The notes under the pieces: generated by a model
Database searches by the model: none
What the model saw: the letters and a program-made list of their open reading frames with translations, nothing else
What the model was told of the DNA's origin: nothing
Source: Methanomicrobia archaeon
Lineage (GTDB): Archaea > Halobacteriota > Bog-38 > Methanoflorentales > Methanoflorentaceae
Length of the DNA stretch: 64,000 bases
Direction: 5' to 3'
Assembly (NCBI GenBank): GCA_015660915.1
Contig: JACTTZ010000009.1
Coordinates: 1 to 64,000 of the forward strand
Part shown: positions 54,446 to 63,575 of the stretch, in pieces
How positions within the stretch are numbered: the first letter of the stretch is position 1
Layout of the letters: the number at the start of each line of letters is the position of its first letter
Made by a program: the position numbers and the translations under genes

Positions 54446-55666
54446 TTATTCTACTTCGTGGCGTGTCAAATCAAACCCTCGTAGTGGAGTGGCGGAACCT
54501 TCTTCCGAACGTAGCAAAGATCGCACCCACTCACGCTCTGTCCACAACGCGCAGCCGCCCTCCATCTCGCTAAGTGTCTCGTGACGCTGGCGAATTGCCC
54601 GCAGAAGTCTAGATTGCAGCGCCTCTTTAAGCGAGAGCTGTCGCACATTTGCATCGGAGTAGGGCGAAACCGGGCACGGCTCAAGATCCCCTTCAGGGCT
54701 CACGTGAACGAATCCTCGCCCCGCAGCAAGACACCCGCCAAACTGGTCCTCGTCTCCGGGAATTGCAATGAAGATTGCAGGAAATTGAGTGCGAAATCGC
54801 TCTGTTTTGTGCGCCAGCGCGCTCCGCTGCTCATCAGTTAAGATCCAGTCTTCAGTGCCTGCCTCCACTGAGACATACTCTAGGAAGAGAATAAGCTTAG
54901 CCCCTGCCTGGGTGAGGCTCTTGATGAAGCGTTCATCTGTGATTGTCGCGAAGTTAGACCGCGTTATCGTCAAAGAGCAGCCAAAAAAGATTCGTTTAGC
55001 ACGCATCCGTTCCATTGCACTCTGCAGGCGCTTATGCATCCCGACACCTCGACGCTCATCAGTGTCGCGTTCGTCGCCCTCAACACTAATAACGGGGATG
55101 ACGTTTCTCTGGTTTCGAAAGTGGTCAAGCGTGCCCTCATCGATGAGCGTTCCGTTCGTAACTATTGGGAATATAACGGAAGGGAAATCTCTGGTAATGG
55201 TCAAGAGATCCTTACGGATCAGTGGTTCTCCGCCTGCGAATAAAATTGCCGAGATGCCAAGCTCGTTTGCCTCAGCTACAAGAGTACGAAGCCGAGCGTC
55301 ACTCAACTCCGGTCCTTTTGATTTGCCCTTATCATGCGCAAAGGCGTAGCATCCTTTGCAGCGGAGGTTGCACTTGCTTGTGACGCTAACGATAAGGAGG
55401 GCCGGCACGTGCAGGTCACTTTTCTGCCATTTCCGCCGCACGAGCGCCGCTTTCCTCTGCCACAAAATAGTGCGGAGAAAGAAGATGGATTTCGCAGGTT
55501 CCCTTAAGGTGATGCGGACGGCATCCCTGAAATAGCCTAAAATGGCGTCGTTAAGAGCGGGAATGTAGCTGTAGTCGTCCGCCGGCGTGCCGGCATCGGC
55601 CAACGTTGCCGCAGCCGCGGGCCTAGGCGGCTTATGTCGTCGGGATTGAGGCGCTTCTTGAATCAT
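54446..55666 (-). CDS. radical SAM protein with C-terminal SPASM-like cysteines
   Basis: 406 residues. The cluster motif C99-x3-C103-x2-C106 (CNLRCKGCYAF), AGGEPLIR and TNGTLID mark a radical SAM barrel. Toward the C-terminus, GGCLAAGRGFVHVSPEGDLEPCPVSPYSDANVRQLSLKEAL resembles the auxiliary-cluster (SPASM/twitch) region of peptide- or protein-modifying enzymes. The first 90 residues are a family-specific extension. Target unknown; no activating partner or obvious RiPP precursor is adjacent. It lies within the repeat-rich island. Confidence 0.85.
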   Translation of the reverse strand: MIQEAPQSRRHKPPRPAAAATLADAGTPADDYSYIPALNDAILGYFRDAVRITLREPAKSIFFLRTILWQRKAALVRRKWQKSDLHVPALLIVSVTSKCNLRCKGCYAFAHDKGKSKGPELSDARLRTLVAEANELGISAILFAGGEPLIRKDLLTITRDFPSVIFPIVTNGTLIDEGTLDHFRNQRNVIPVISVEGDERDTDERRGVGMHKRLQSAMERMRAKRIFFGCSLTITRSNFATITDERFIKSLTQAGAKLILFLEYVSVEAGTEDWILTDEQRSALAHKTERFRTQFPAIFIAIPGDEDQFGGCLAAGRGFVHVSPEGDLEPCPVSPYSDANVRQLSLKEALQSRLLRAIRQRHETLSEMEGGCALWTEREWVRSLLRSEEGSATPLRGFDLTRHEVE

Positions 55667-60358: not shown

Positions 60359-61150
60359 ATGCCTACGGATTTCAAAAAAGAAACGCCCGCTGAAGCCATC
60401 GATTGGGATGAGTTCCATCCTACAACTCCATATGACGTTTACGTGCCGCACACGCCGCAGCGCAAGAAATGGTCAATCGTCCTGGGTATCTTGCTGTATC
60501 TCATAGGCCAATTTAGCGTGTCGCTCTTTTTGCCGCCCCTTCTCATCAGCACGGGCATAATCGCATCGCGCGAAGCGCTCAACATATCCTCTGGAATTGT
60601 CACTCCCGCGACCTTATGGCTTTTGAACGTTGCGAATATCGTTTCCATTGCGCTCATCATAGCAGTCGTTCTCGGTTTCTACAAGGACAAGCTCGCTTCA
60701 CTTGGATTCACCACGAAAAAAATACCGAAAGCGCTTCTCTATGGTGTTATAGGATTCGTCGTTGCCTTTATCATCGCAGGCATCGTCGGCTATCCCATTC
60801 AACAACAGTTCGGCGTCGATCCGACGCAGGAGGCGCTATCACAAACGGCCAGCGTCCCGGGACTTTTACCCCTCCTCTTCTTGTCTGGAGTCATCATCGC
60901 CCCCATCGCGGAAGAGATCGTGTTTCGGGGGTACCTCTACAAAGCCTTCAGAGATCGCTTTAAGCCCTCATACGCGATCTTCCTGAGCGCCGCACTCTTT
61001 TCGGCCATCCATTTGGAGCTGCTGGCCGCTGCTCCGCTGTTCGTCATCGGTATCGTTCTCGCGTACGTGTACGAGAAGACGGGCAATTTGATGGCTCCGA
61101 TTACGTTGCACGTGCTCAACAACGCGGTTGCCTTCCTCTTTGTGCGCTAG
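60359..61150 (+). CDS. CPBP (CAAX-like) intramembrane protease
   Basis: 263 residues with six or more TM helices. The motifs APIAEEIVFRGYLYKAF (EExxxR), SAALFSAIH (FxxxH) and the final LMAPITLHVLNNAVAFLF (HxxxN/D) are complete. CPBP proteases cleave prenylated or bacteriocin-related peptides in membranes; some protect against or process self-made bacteriocins. The last 64 bases of this gene recur exactly at 63503-63566, beyond the lasso-type cassette, so the gene's 3' end looks like the site where the cassette was inserted. Confidence 0.9.
   Translation: MPTDFKKETPAEAIDWDEFHPTTPYDVYVPHTPQRKKWSIVLGILLYLIGQFSVSLFLPPLLISTGIIASREALNISSGIVTPATLWLLNVANIVSIALIIAVVLGFYKDKLASLGFTTKKIPKALLYGVIGFVVAFIIAGIVGYPIQQQFGVDPTQEALSQTASVPGLLPLLFLSGVIIAPIAEEIVFRGYLYKAFRDRFKPSYAIFLSAALFSAIHLELLAAAPLFVIGIVLAYVYEKTGNLMAPITLHVLNNAVAFLFVR
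61087..61150 (+). repeat. left copy of a 64-bp direct repeat (3' end of the CPBP gene)
   Basis: Identical to 63503-63566 for 64 bases, with TGCCCG shared after one mismatch. Left copy completes the CPBP gene; right copy stands alone. Position at a gene's 3' end resembles attL/attR of elements that integrate there. Confidence 0.9.
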
Positions 61151-61343
61151 GTGCCCGCCACTGAGAGGCATCTCTGCATCATTTATCCACGCTGAACAAT
61201 AAAGCGTATCGATGTAGGGCTGCACGGCTGAGCTAGCTTTATAGGCCAGATAAGCTCGCTGATGGCAATCAGAGACCGTTAGCCGCGAAATCATTCTTAA
61301 ATATGAGGTTATATAAAGTTGTAGTATTCACTGGAGGCTTTAG

Positions 61344-63248
61344 ATGAGCGGCATTATCGGCATCTATCGCTTTGATAACAAAATCATCGACTCAAGTGAG
61401 CCACACCGTATGATCGACCGCCTCGCCCACCGCGGCCCGGACGGCTCGGGCACTTGGCACCGCGGTCCAGTTGGCCTCGGCCATTGCATGCTCTGGACCA
61501 CCCCCGAGTCCCTGCACGAGCAGCTCCCATTGGTCAGTGACGACGACCGCTGCGCCATCACCGCCGACGCCCGTATCGACAACCGCGACGAGCTCATCAC
61601 CGGCTTGAGACTCGTTACTCCTCCAGCAGAGATCACCGACAGCCAGCTCATCCTCCACGCCTATGAACGCTGGGGCGAGCACTGCGTCGACCACCTCCTC
61701 GGCGACTTCGCCTTTGCGATCTGGGACGACGACAAACAGCACCTCTTCTGCGCCCGCGACCACATGGGCGTCAAGCCGTTCTTCCACTACTGCTCTGATA
61801 CGCTCTTCGCCTTCGCCTCTGAGATTAAGGCCCTCTTCTGCCTGCCTCAGGTGCCCCGCGAGATAAACGAGGTGCGGGTGGCATGCTACCTCGCCGCGAT
61901 CATGAAGGACAAGCAGATCACCGCCTACAAAGATGTTCGACGGCTGCCTGCGGCATATTCTATGGTCATCACGAGCGAACAGGCAGACGTGCGTCAGTAC
62001 TGGTCTCTCGATCCGACCCGTGAAATCCGCCTAGACTCTGATGATGCCTACGCAGCTGCATTCCGTGATATCTTCTCCGAAGCCGTCCGCTGTCGGCTCC
62101 GGAGCGCTTTTCCCGTTGGGGCAGAGCTCAGCGGCGGCCTAGATTCCTCCTCGGTCGCCTGCGTTGCGCGACAGCACTTCGTAGGAGGTGGGGGGCCTCC
62201 TCTCCCCGTATTTTCCCTCACCTTTGACTCGACCCCTGAGTGCGACGAGAGCGCTTATGCGAACGCCTTAGTCGCTCAAGGTGGAGTGGTGCCACATTGG
62301 ATCCCCACTGGAGCCTTAAGTCCGTTCAAAGCGGTATTAAAGATCGTCTCCCAGCAAAATGAGGAGCTTACCGCTGCGCCTAACTTATACCTTTCACACG
62401 CCAGTGCGGATATGGCCCAGCGTGCGGGCATCCGAGTCCTCTTAACCGGCCTCGACGGGGATACGACCGTGTATCACGCGCCTGAGTATTTTTTGGAGTT
62501 GGCCCGCACCGGGCGGTGGAAGACACTTGCCGAAAACGTCTACGAGTTCTCAAAGCTCCGCGCCGATCTGACCACGTGGAAGGTCTTCAAAATGGGAGTC
62601 CTTGCGCCCATCGCGCCGGGCCCGTTCCTCCGAGTGTGGCACCTCGTGCGGCGGCAGCACGCCCCCATACACGTCGATGCAGAGTGTATCAACCCTACAT
62701 TTGCCCGTCGTGTCGGACTCGCTGCGCTTCAAGAGGCGCACAAGAAAATGCTAAAACCGGATAAGACCGTAAGAGAGGGACACTACCAGAGTCTCACAAG
62801 TGACTACATCGAGCTCGCATTGGAGGAAAAAGACCGAATATCTGCTCCCTTTGGCATCGAGCTACGCCACCCGTTCTTTGACAAACGGCTAGTGGAGTTC
62901 TGTCTCGCGCTGCCTGCCGAGCAGAAGATGCGGGGCGGGTGGACCCGCGTAGTGCTACGTCACGCGATGGACAAGCTTCTCCCGCGAGAGATTCAGTGGA
63001 GACCGAGCAAGTCAAACCTCGGTCCGGGTTTCGTGCGCAATCTAGCAACACACGACGGGGCCCTTATTGAAACGGTCTTGACGAACCCCCCGTACCACCT
63101 TGGGCAATTCGTTGACGTGTCCAAGCTGCGCCGTGTCTTTGAGCGCTTTAAGTGTCACCCTACAACGGGCGATGCGATGGTTCTATGGCGCGCTGTAAAC
63201 GTCGCGCTTTGGATTTCCGTAAGCCCCGCTCAATCGCCAACAGAGTGA
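61344..63248 (+). CDS. asparagine-synthetase-like lasso peptide cyclase
   Basis: 634 residues. The N-terminus MSGIIGIYRFD has Ser where true AsnB enzymes have the catalytic Cys2, so glutaminase activity is not expected; lasso cyclases of the LasC/McjC type share this change. A degenerate glutaminase domain (RLAHRGPDGSG) is followed by the ATP-pyrophosphatase loop ELSGGLDSSSVA (about residues 261-272) and LLTGLDGDTTVYHAPEYFLELARTGRW (about 366-392), the GLDGD-T block typical of lasso cyclases. The enzyme adenylates an Asp/Glu side chain and closes the macrolactam. GGAGG before ATG 61344 and TTATATAA upstream support the start. A precursor gene follows at 63295. Confidence 0.88.
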   Translation: MSGIIGIYRFDNKIIDSSEPHRMIDRLAHRGPDGSGTWHRGPVGLGHCMLWTTPESLHEQLPLVSDDDRCAITADARIDNRDELITGLRLVTPPAEITDSQLILHAYERWGEHCVDHLLGDFAFAIWDDDKQHLFCARDHMGVKPFFHYCSDTLFAFASEIKALFCLPQVPREINEVRVACYLAAIMKDKQITAYKDVRRLPAAYSMVITSEQADVRQYWSLDPTREIRLDSDDAYAAAFRDIFSEAVRCRLRSAFPVGAELSGGLDSSSVACVARQHFVGGGGPPLPVFSLTFDSTPECDESAYANALVAQGGVVPHWIPTGALSPFKAVLKIVSQQNEELTAAPNLYLSHASADMAQRAGIRVLLTGLDGDTTVYHAPEYFLELARTGRWKTLAENVYEFSKLRADLTTWKVFKMGVLAPIAPGPFLRVWHLVRRQHAPIHVDAECINPTFARRVGLAALQEAHKKMLKPDKTVREGHYQSLTSDYIELALEEKDRISAPFGIELRHPFFDKRLVEFCLALPAEQKMRGGWTRVVLRHAMDKLLPREIQWRPSKSNLGPGFVRNLATHDGALIETVLTNPPYHLGQFVDVSKLRRVFERFKCHPTTGDAMVLWRAVNVALWISVSPAQSPTE

Positions 63249-63294
63249 AAGCATAAGAGTTAAGTGCAGCAAGTGCCACTGCTTAGATTGTCAT

Positions 63295-63420
63295 ATGGAT
63301 AACGACAAACGCCTCTGGAGTACGCCGCATCTCGTGACGCTGGGGGATATCCAAACGCTGACGGAAAATGTGGAAGGAGACAGCCCAGCGGACGACCCGT
63401 ATGGGAGCTACCTCCCTTAG
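63295..63420 (+). CDS. candidate lasso peptide precursor
   Basis: 41 residues, starting 46 bases after the cyclase stop. Residues 8-23 (WSTPHLVTLGDIQTLT) match the lasso leader pattern Y/W-xx-P-x-L-xxx-G-xxxxx-T: W8, P11, L13, G17, T23. If cleavage follows the usual rule with Thr at -2, the core is the 17 residues N25-P41, and D33 is core position 9, a proper ring acceptor (Asn1-Asp9). A start at G28 with D34 at position 7 is an alternative. Asn as first residue is uncommon. No leader-binding RRE protein or leader protease gene is in the window. Confidence 0.75.
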   Translation: MDNDKRLWSTPHLVTLGDIQTLTENVEGDSPADDPYGSYLP

Positions 63421-63470
63421 AGTTCTGTCTCGAGCTGCCTGCAGAGCAGAAGATGCGGGGCGGGTGGACC
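63420..63470 (+). repeat. 51-bp fragment of the cyclase gene
   Basis: GAGTTCTGTCTCG-GCTGCCTGC through GGGCGGGTGGACC repeats 62895-62945 of the cyclase gene with two mismatches. It begins on the last base of the precursor stop codon. It shows that a second cyclase copy, or part of one, once lay here. Confidence 0.85.
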
Positions 63471-63502: not shown

Positions 63503-63566
63503 TTTGATGGCTCCGATTACGTTGCACGTGCTCAACAACGCGGTTGCCTTCCTCTTTGTGCGCTAG
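63503..63566 (+). repeat. right copy of the 64-bp direct repeat (CPBP 3' end)
   Basis: Exact copy of 61087-61150. It is in frame with the cyclase fragment at 63420-63470, so the junction reads as a short chimera (GGWTYMLCRFGPFSILMAPI) without a start codon. Confidence 0.9.
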
Positions 63567-63575
63567 ATGCCCGTC

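Follow-up and report, generated by a model that had tools for sequence, protein, structure and literature searches.

Lasso peptides are small peptides tied as a slip-knot. The genes for the precursor (A), the leader-binding and protease functions (B1 and B2) and the cyclase (C) are usually clustered, although clustering is not chemically required, and a cyclase matching the NCBIfam model NF033535 together with B1 and B2 constitutes a lasso signature. The closest described systems are the paeninodin/pseudomycoidin-type clusters of Bacilli, which combine A, C, a split B1 and B2, an exporter, an HprK-like kinase and a PsmN-like nucleotidyltransferase; in this type the kinase modifies a core serine (PMC9266682). 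Metanodin, from a soil metagenome, is a lasso peptide supported by mass spectrometry (MS), with Asn1, a ring to Asp and interlocked fragments (PMC12670498). Archaeal RiPPs listed in PMC12144867 include lassopeptides, a haloarchaeal plasmid lasso cluster is mentioned in PMC10093198, and Euryarchaeota are named for lasso clusters by Tietz 2017, as cited in PMC7533575. The searchable literature, outside which most subscription journals lie, describes no archaeal lasso product. Because genome surveys have already recorded lasso clusters in archaea, the gene pair reported here is a further archaeal case, with an unusual, dispersed layout.

The window, a 64-kb stretch comprising positions 1–64,000 of a 153-kb contig (C4), carries a cyclase gene and a precursor gene that are, with near certainty, an authentic lasso pair of the paeninodin/pseudomycoidin type in a methanogen-type archaeon (Table 1). 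The full gene set resembles that of the Bacilli clusters, from which it differs in its archaeal host, its five dispersed sites and its Asn1. An earlier note on this DNA, made from the sequence alone, had described an AsnB-like protein without Cys2 and with a GLDGD-T block, and we find the same in the complete reading frame: the protein begins MSGIIGI, has serine at position 2 and so lacks the Cys2 glutaminase of asparagine synthetase B, and contains the motifs SGGLDSS and TGLDGDT. NF033535 (‘lasso peptide isopeptide bond-forming cyclase’) matches it at 777 bits (cut-off 525), whereas the asparagine synthase model TIGR01536 reaches 299 bits. In a phylogenetic tree, lasso-type sequences (n = 30) separate from AsnB-like archaeal sequences (n = 20) at 100/100; C falls with the lasso cyclases, all of which lack Cys2. 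Its branch sits among cyclases from Omnitrophota, Cyanobacteriota, Acidobacteriota and archaea alike, and this intermixing of bacterial and archaeal sequences suggests transfer between domains. An ordinary asparagine synthetase beside a chance reading frame is ruled out by the NF033535 score, the tree and the conservation of the precursor.

Examination of the aligned cyclases shows that C conforms at 67 of 70 near-invariant columns, among them the core residues of SGGLDSS, D301-E302 and G369-G372-D373; its deviations at the other three are covered by the range of its relatives. Residue 339, which we take to align with Glu348 of E. coli AsnB, is Asn in C and Asp in 24 of 29 relatives, and residue 379 is Ala where nearly all relatives have Gly. 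The AlphaFold (AF2) model of C is a confident one, with a pLDDT of 88.9 and a pTM of 0.90. Sequence and fold searches of the PDB returned no lasso cyclase, the nearest folds being TsnB9 and AsnB.

Table 1. Lasso genes, gene remnants and neighbouring features; unprefixed positions are those of the window, C4, C18 and C19 are contigs of the same genome, and L numbers denote loci.
Feature	Position	Strand	Basis or remark
CPBP gene, directly upstream of C	60359-61150
71-bp direct repeat, copy 1, at 3′ end of CPBP gene, left of C-A	61087..61157	+	blastn
TATA-like box TTATATAAAG upstream of C	61309..61318	+	Consensus match by reading, putative
Shine-Dalgarno-like GGAGG, 6 nt ahead of the ATG of C	61333..61337	+	Read in sequence
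C, lasso macrolactam cyclase, AsnB-fold, 634 aa	61344..63248	+	NF033535, tree, AF2 model
A, lasso precursor, 41 aa; leader 1-24, predicted core 25-41 NVEGDSPADDPYGSYLP	63295..63420	+	Leader motif
51-bp copy of cyclase 62895-62945	63420..63470	+	blastn, 96% identity
71-bp direct repeat, copy 2, right of C-A	63503..63573	+	blastn
B2, transglutaminase-like leader peptidase, 146 aa, intact	C4:81406-81846		NF033537, 98.2 bits (cut-off 33)
B1, PqqD-type leader-binding protein, 100 aa, intact	C4:81839-82141		Pfam PF05402 (PqqD), 70.6 bits
K, HprK-like kinase, intact	C18:111723-112664		HprK-related models weakly (33 bits); 41% identical to G005-cluster kinase
ABC exporter, intact	C19:217554-219422		77% identical to exporter of compact G005 cluster
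NT, PF14907 (NTP_transf_5) nucleotidyltransferase, intact	C4:74665-75852
NT, second PF14907 nucleotidyltransferase, intact	C19:223183-224466
B1 remnants	C18:110528, C4:74156, C4:76235, C4:77190
Cyclase remnants	C18:110848, C18:111493, C19:221714, C4:63420		Last is 51 bp
ABC remnants	C19:216.9-217.3 kb, C19:221616, C4:82844
NT remnant	C4:76998
DUF4012/DUF4352-like sites	L086:6849-8686, L014:5502-7370, L028:5011-6853

The precursor gene starts 46 nt past the stop codon of C on the same strand, has no obvious Shine-Dalgarno sequence ahead of it and translates as MDNDKRLWSTPHLVTLGDIQTLTENVEGDSPADDPYGSYLP. Its leader reads W-xx-P-x-L-xxx-G-xxxxx-T. With Asn25 as core residue 1, W8, P11 and L13 stand at −17, −14 and −12 and Thr at −2, the canonical register of the YxxPxL leader with T(−2) (PMC10368454), and an Asp occupies core position 9, inside the acceptor range of 7–9. 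The 41-residue frame proposed in the note, with its leader pattern and Asp9, is therefore correct and its register exact. The strict leader pattern has a single match in the six frames of the whole 64-kb window, for which an order-2 Markov model expects 0.3; by our own arithmetic, a chance match on the same strand within ∼300 nt downstream of C has p ∼0.001. Pfam does not recognise A, and lasso precursor models match it weakly (14 bits).

Comparison with 35 precursors beside homologous cyclases, six bacterial loci among them, shows what is conserved. The length and spacing of the 16-residue leader motif are those of A in 34 of the 35. Asn is the modal residue at core position 1 (11/35) and Asp at core position 9 (16/35), as in A, and 23 of the precursors share with A a Gly-Ser pair no more than six residues from the C-terminus. 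The frame is thus kept beside related cyclases in its leader. Neither outcome that the note had named as a refutation, a cyclase falling with asparagine synthetases or a frame lost beside related cyclases, is what we observe. Its core is not: against sister species the core of A finds no match better than E 0.19, and only the leader motif is conserved there. The core ends in YGSYLP, so that Ser14 lies in the Gly-Ser motif and the last residue is Pro; in the paeninodin/pseudomycoidin type, by contrast, the phosphorylated Ser is usually C-terminal. The leader motif revealed no second precursor in the stretches of C4, C18 and C19 near other lasso pieces.

Lasso maturation also involves B proteins, and the note had seen no leader peptidase. 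This holds for the window, because the window stops 17.4 kb short of an intact B2 on the same contig. A search of the genome located neighbouring Transglut_core3 and PqqD genes at C4:81.4–82.1 kb, the transglutaminase-like protease and PqqD-like RRE that the note had proposed to look for. B2 carries the Cys and AHAW motifs; NF033536 scores 73 bits on B1, under its cut-off of 80. Between the C-A and B1-B2 pairs lie 18 kb that hold unrelated genes. The suggestion of a reduced or trans-complemented system therefore survives in its second half, as B1 and B2 are encoded elsewhere and would act in trans; a reduced system is not supported, since canonical B1 and B2 are intact. That the B proteins are missing or replaced is ruled out by these two genes on C4, and the CPBP and TldD/E proteins named as speculative stand-ins give way to them. 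A pathway in which a CPBP or TldD/E protease nevertheless takes the place of B2, or in which the leader peptidase is dispensable, is extremely improbable. A CPBP gene does stand immediately upstream of C, and a title cited in PMC9266682 refers to pseudomycoidin synthesis in vivo without leader and leader peptidase, but canonical B1 and B2 are intact on this contig, a compact cluster from the same genus (G005) shows no CPBP gene, and the conserved leader implies recognition of the B1 type.

The remaining genes are more widely scattered. The kinase and the ABC exporter lie on contigs other than C4, the lasso genes occupy five sites in all, and A, B and C do not form one cluster. In the sequence examined, A, C, B1, B2 and the ABC exporter each have one intact copy. 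They are accompanied by nine or more remnants, derived from B1, C, ABC and NT, which indicate that the system has been decaying. Pairwise dN/dS is 0.16 for C against the cyclase fragment on C18, 0.14 for the ABC exporter, 0.13 for B1 and 0.29–0.36 for B2. Across the core genes this range (0.13–0.36) indicates purifying selection, read as an average over time with some synonymous distances near saturation and not as proof of present activity.

Two readings of this arrangement have to be weighed. The chief rival to a working pathway is a relic in decay, in which the identities are right, the cluster is shattered, the pathway is dead and the intact frames are merely the last to go. Such a relic could explain the remnants in the same genome (four of B1, four of the cyclase, several of ABC and one of NT), the cyclase substitutions D339N and G379A, and the 71-bp and 51-bp duplications at C-A, which have diverged little. 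A sister genome (G002, contig C128; L040:9888-10604), whose lasso locus is decaying, in that B1 is interrupted by an in-frame stop codon and the frame of B2 is broken, points the same way. Random decay, however, is unlikely to leave exactly one intact gene for each core step and only broken extras; the dN/dS values likewise speak against a relic, and the cyclase is off at 3 of 70 near-invariant columns, as its relatives may be. We therefore consider the relic unlikely, if the most serious alternative, and judge it probable that the dispersed A, B1, B2, C, K, ABC and NT are a real, working lasso pathway with a predicted Asn1-Asp9 ring.

The ground around the C-A pair itself bears signs of rearrangement. 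The 71-bp repeats that flank it are 98.6% identical, and the 51-bp copy of cyclase sequence starts at the last base of the stop codon of A, so the C-terminus of A may have been altered. Elsewhere in the genome, a broken gene that we read by eye as Sep-tRNA:Cys-tRNA synthase (C4:76403-76798, L013) lies beside the lasso remnants of C4, and an intact copy (C18:113702-114874, L015) lies beside those of C18. The two share 86% DNA identity over 199 bp, and their positions suggest a segmental duplication that carried both synthase and lasso genes. A DUF4012 protein and, after it, a DUF4352-like protein occur near lasso genes or the exporter at three sites spread over two genomes; a functional link between this pair and the lasso genes is possible. 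A radical SAM/SPASM protein is also encoded in the window (54446-55666, minus strand); it stays below the cut-off of each curated NCBIfam model shown. With an intact mcrA (988 bits) in the genome and flanking genes of archaeal type, among them HtpX and a damage-control phosphatase (Archaeoglobus-named model), the locus shows no obvious sign of a binning error.

In other archaea and in bacteria, related clusters bring B1, B2, C, A, K, ABC and NT together compactly. Six clusters from Cyanobacteria, Acidobacteriota and Omnitrophota (L016-L020, L022) resemble the window in pairing an NF033535 cyclase (43–46% identical to C) with a same-strand precursor. In all six an open reading frame with the leader motif lies ∼90–140 nt beyond the point where the cyclase match ends, the order is B1-B2-C, precursor, kinase, and NT and ABC are present in most. 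Unlike the window system, these clusters are compact, and their cores are unrelated to the window core. Archaeal clusters of the same phylum (G335, G341, G391, G185, G171) and the same genus (G005, G006) share the cyclase family, leader motif and accessory genes with the window, and many of their cores likewise combine Asn1 or Gln1 with Asp9. They differ in having a single locus per pathway where the window pathway is dispersed, and many cores of other families share DKIGxGED, which the window core lacks. A leader-motif frame is close to almost all archaeal lasso cyclases examined, usually just downstream; in G005 the precursor lies upstream of the cyclase and is divergent. The compact cluster of that genome holds B2, C, the divergent A, kinase, ABC, B1, a second C and a broken NT.

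Among genomes sampled from the phylum, 8 of 394 exceed the NF033535 cut-off; the corresponding figures are 11 of 125 for one family and 3 of 50 for one order, which indicates that lasso clusters are patchy yet widespread in the phylum. Excluding A, the cores of the 29 archaeal precursors are of two types or more: in one, Asn1/Gln1 is frequent and goes with Asp9, and the other has the canonical Gly1/Asp8. The latter, G-x-HFS-x-VDGNSGTTGNRG, is found at L101, L102 and L103 in the same phylum, in genomes that also hold a cyclase beside an Asn/Gln1-type core. In G171 (L087:8000-8600), one cyclase is followed by three tandem precursors whose cores contain GTADG-x-GS.

From these components we infer a pathway in which the dispersed proteins act together. 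B1, with its PqqD fold, would bind the leader at W(−17)xxPxL, and B2, a transglutaminase-like Cys protease, would cut after Glu(−1), at Glu24/Asn25. C would then use ATP to adenylate the side chain of Asp9 and join it to the alpha-amine of Asn1, closing the ring around the threaded tail DPYGSYLP. By analogy with PsmK and PsmN (PMC9266682), the kinase and an NTP_transf_5 enzyme (from C4 or C19) may decorate a tail serine such as Ser14, and the ABC exporter would carry the product out. Asp9 is a plausible acceptor, as the note had proposed, given that Asn is the commonest first core residue in relatives, with an experimental precedent in metanodin, whose tail differs and whose product, unlike the one predicted here from genes, was shown by MS. 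The exact ring is uncertain because the first possible acceptor varies among relatives from core 7 to 12, with T-x kept as the cut site. We see little prospect for an active A and C that yield an unthreaded macrolactam, another AsnB-type modification, or a different ring (for example Val2-Asp9 or Gly4-Asp10) after a different leader cut. The shifting acceptor position leaves some room for such products, as does an asparagine synthetase-like enzyme reported to make nitriles in another RiPP pathway (PMC13060819), but NF033535, B1 and B2 make up the lasso signature, T(−2) and Asp9 stand where the canonical register puts them, and metanodin, also Asn1, gives interlocked fragments (PMC12670498). 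The scattered genes of the lasso pathway likely still make their product, and the predicted dehydrated 17-mer lactam has a monoisotopic mass of 1776.748 (1776.75), with [M+2H]2+ at 889.381.

The present layout may have arisen when a once compact, partly duplicated cluster broke up, so that single intact copies of the core genes now stand at five sites with remnants around them. A fuller version of this history, which we offer tentatively and rate somewhat below an even chance, is that duplicate clusters decayed reciprocally while selection maintains the scattered, working pathway, whose Asn1-Asp9 product could be the first characterised archaeal lasso peptide. Two features are of interest: the scattering of core genes that each retain a single intact copy, and the cores that begin with Asn. 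The gene set provides a definite product mass and enzymes that can be assayed. The dispersal also advises caution in cluster-based mining: rules that demand A, B and C only a few kilobases from one another would pass over the pathway described here.
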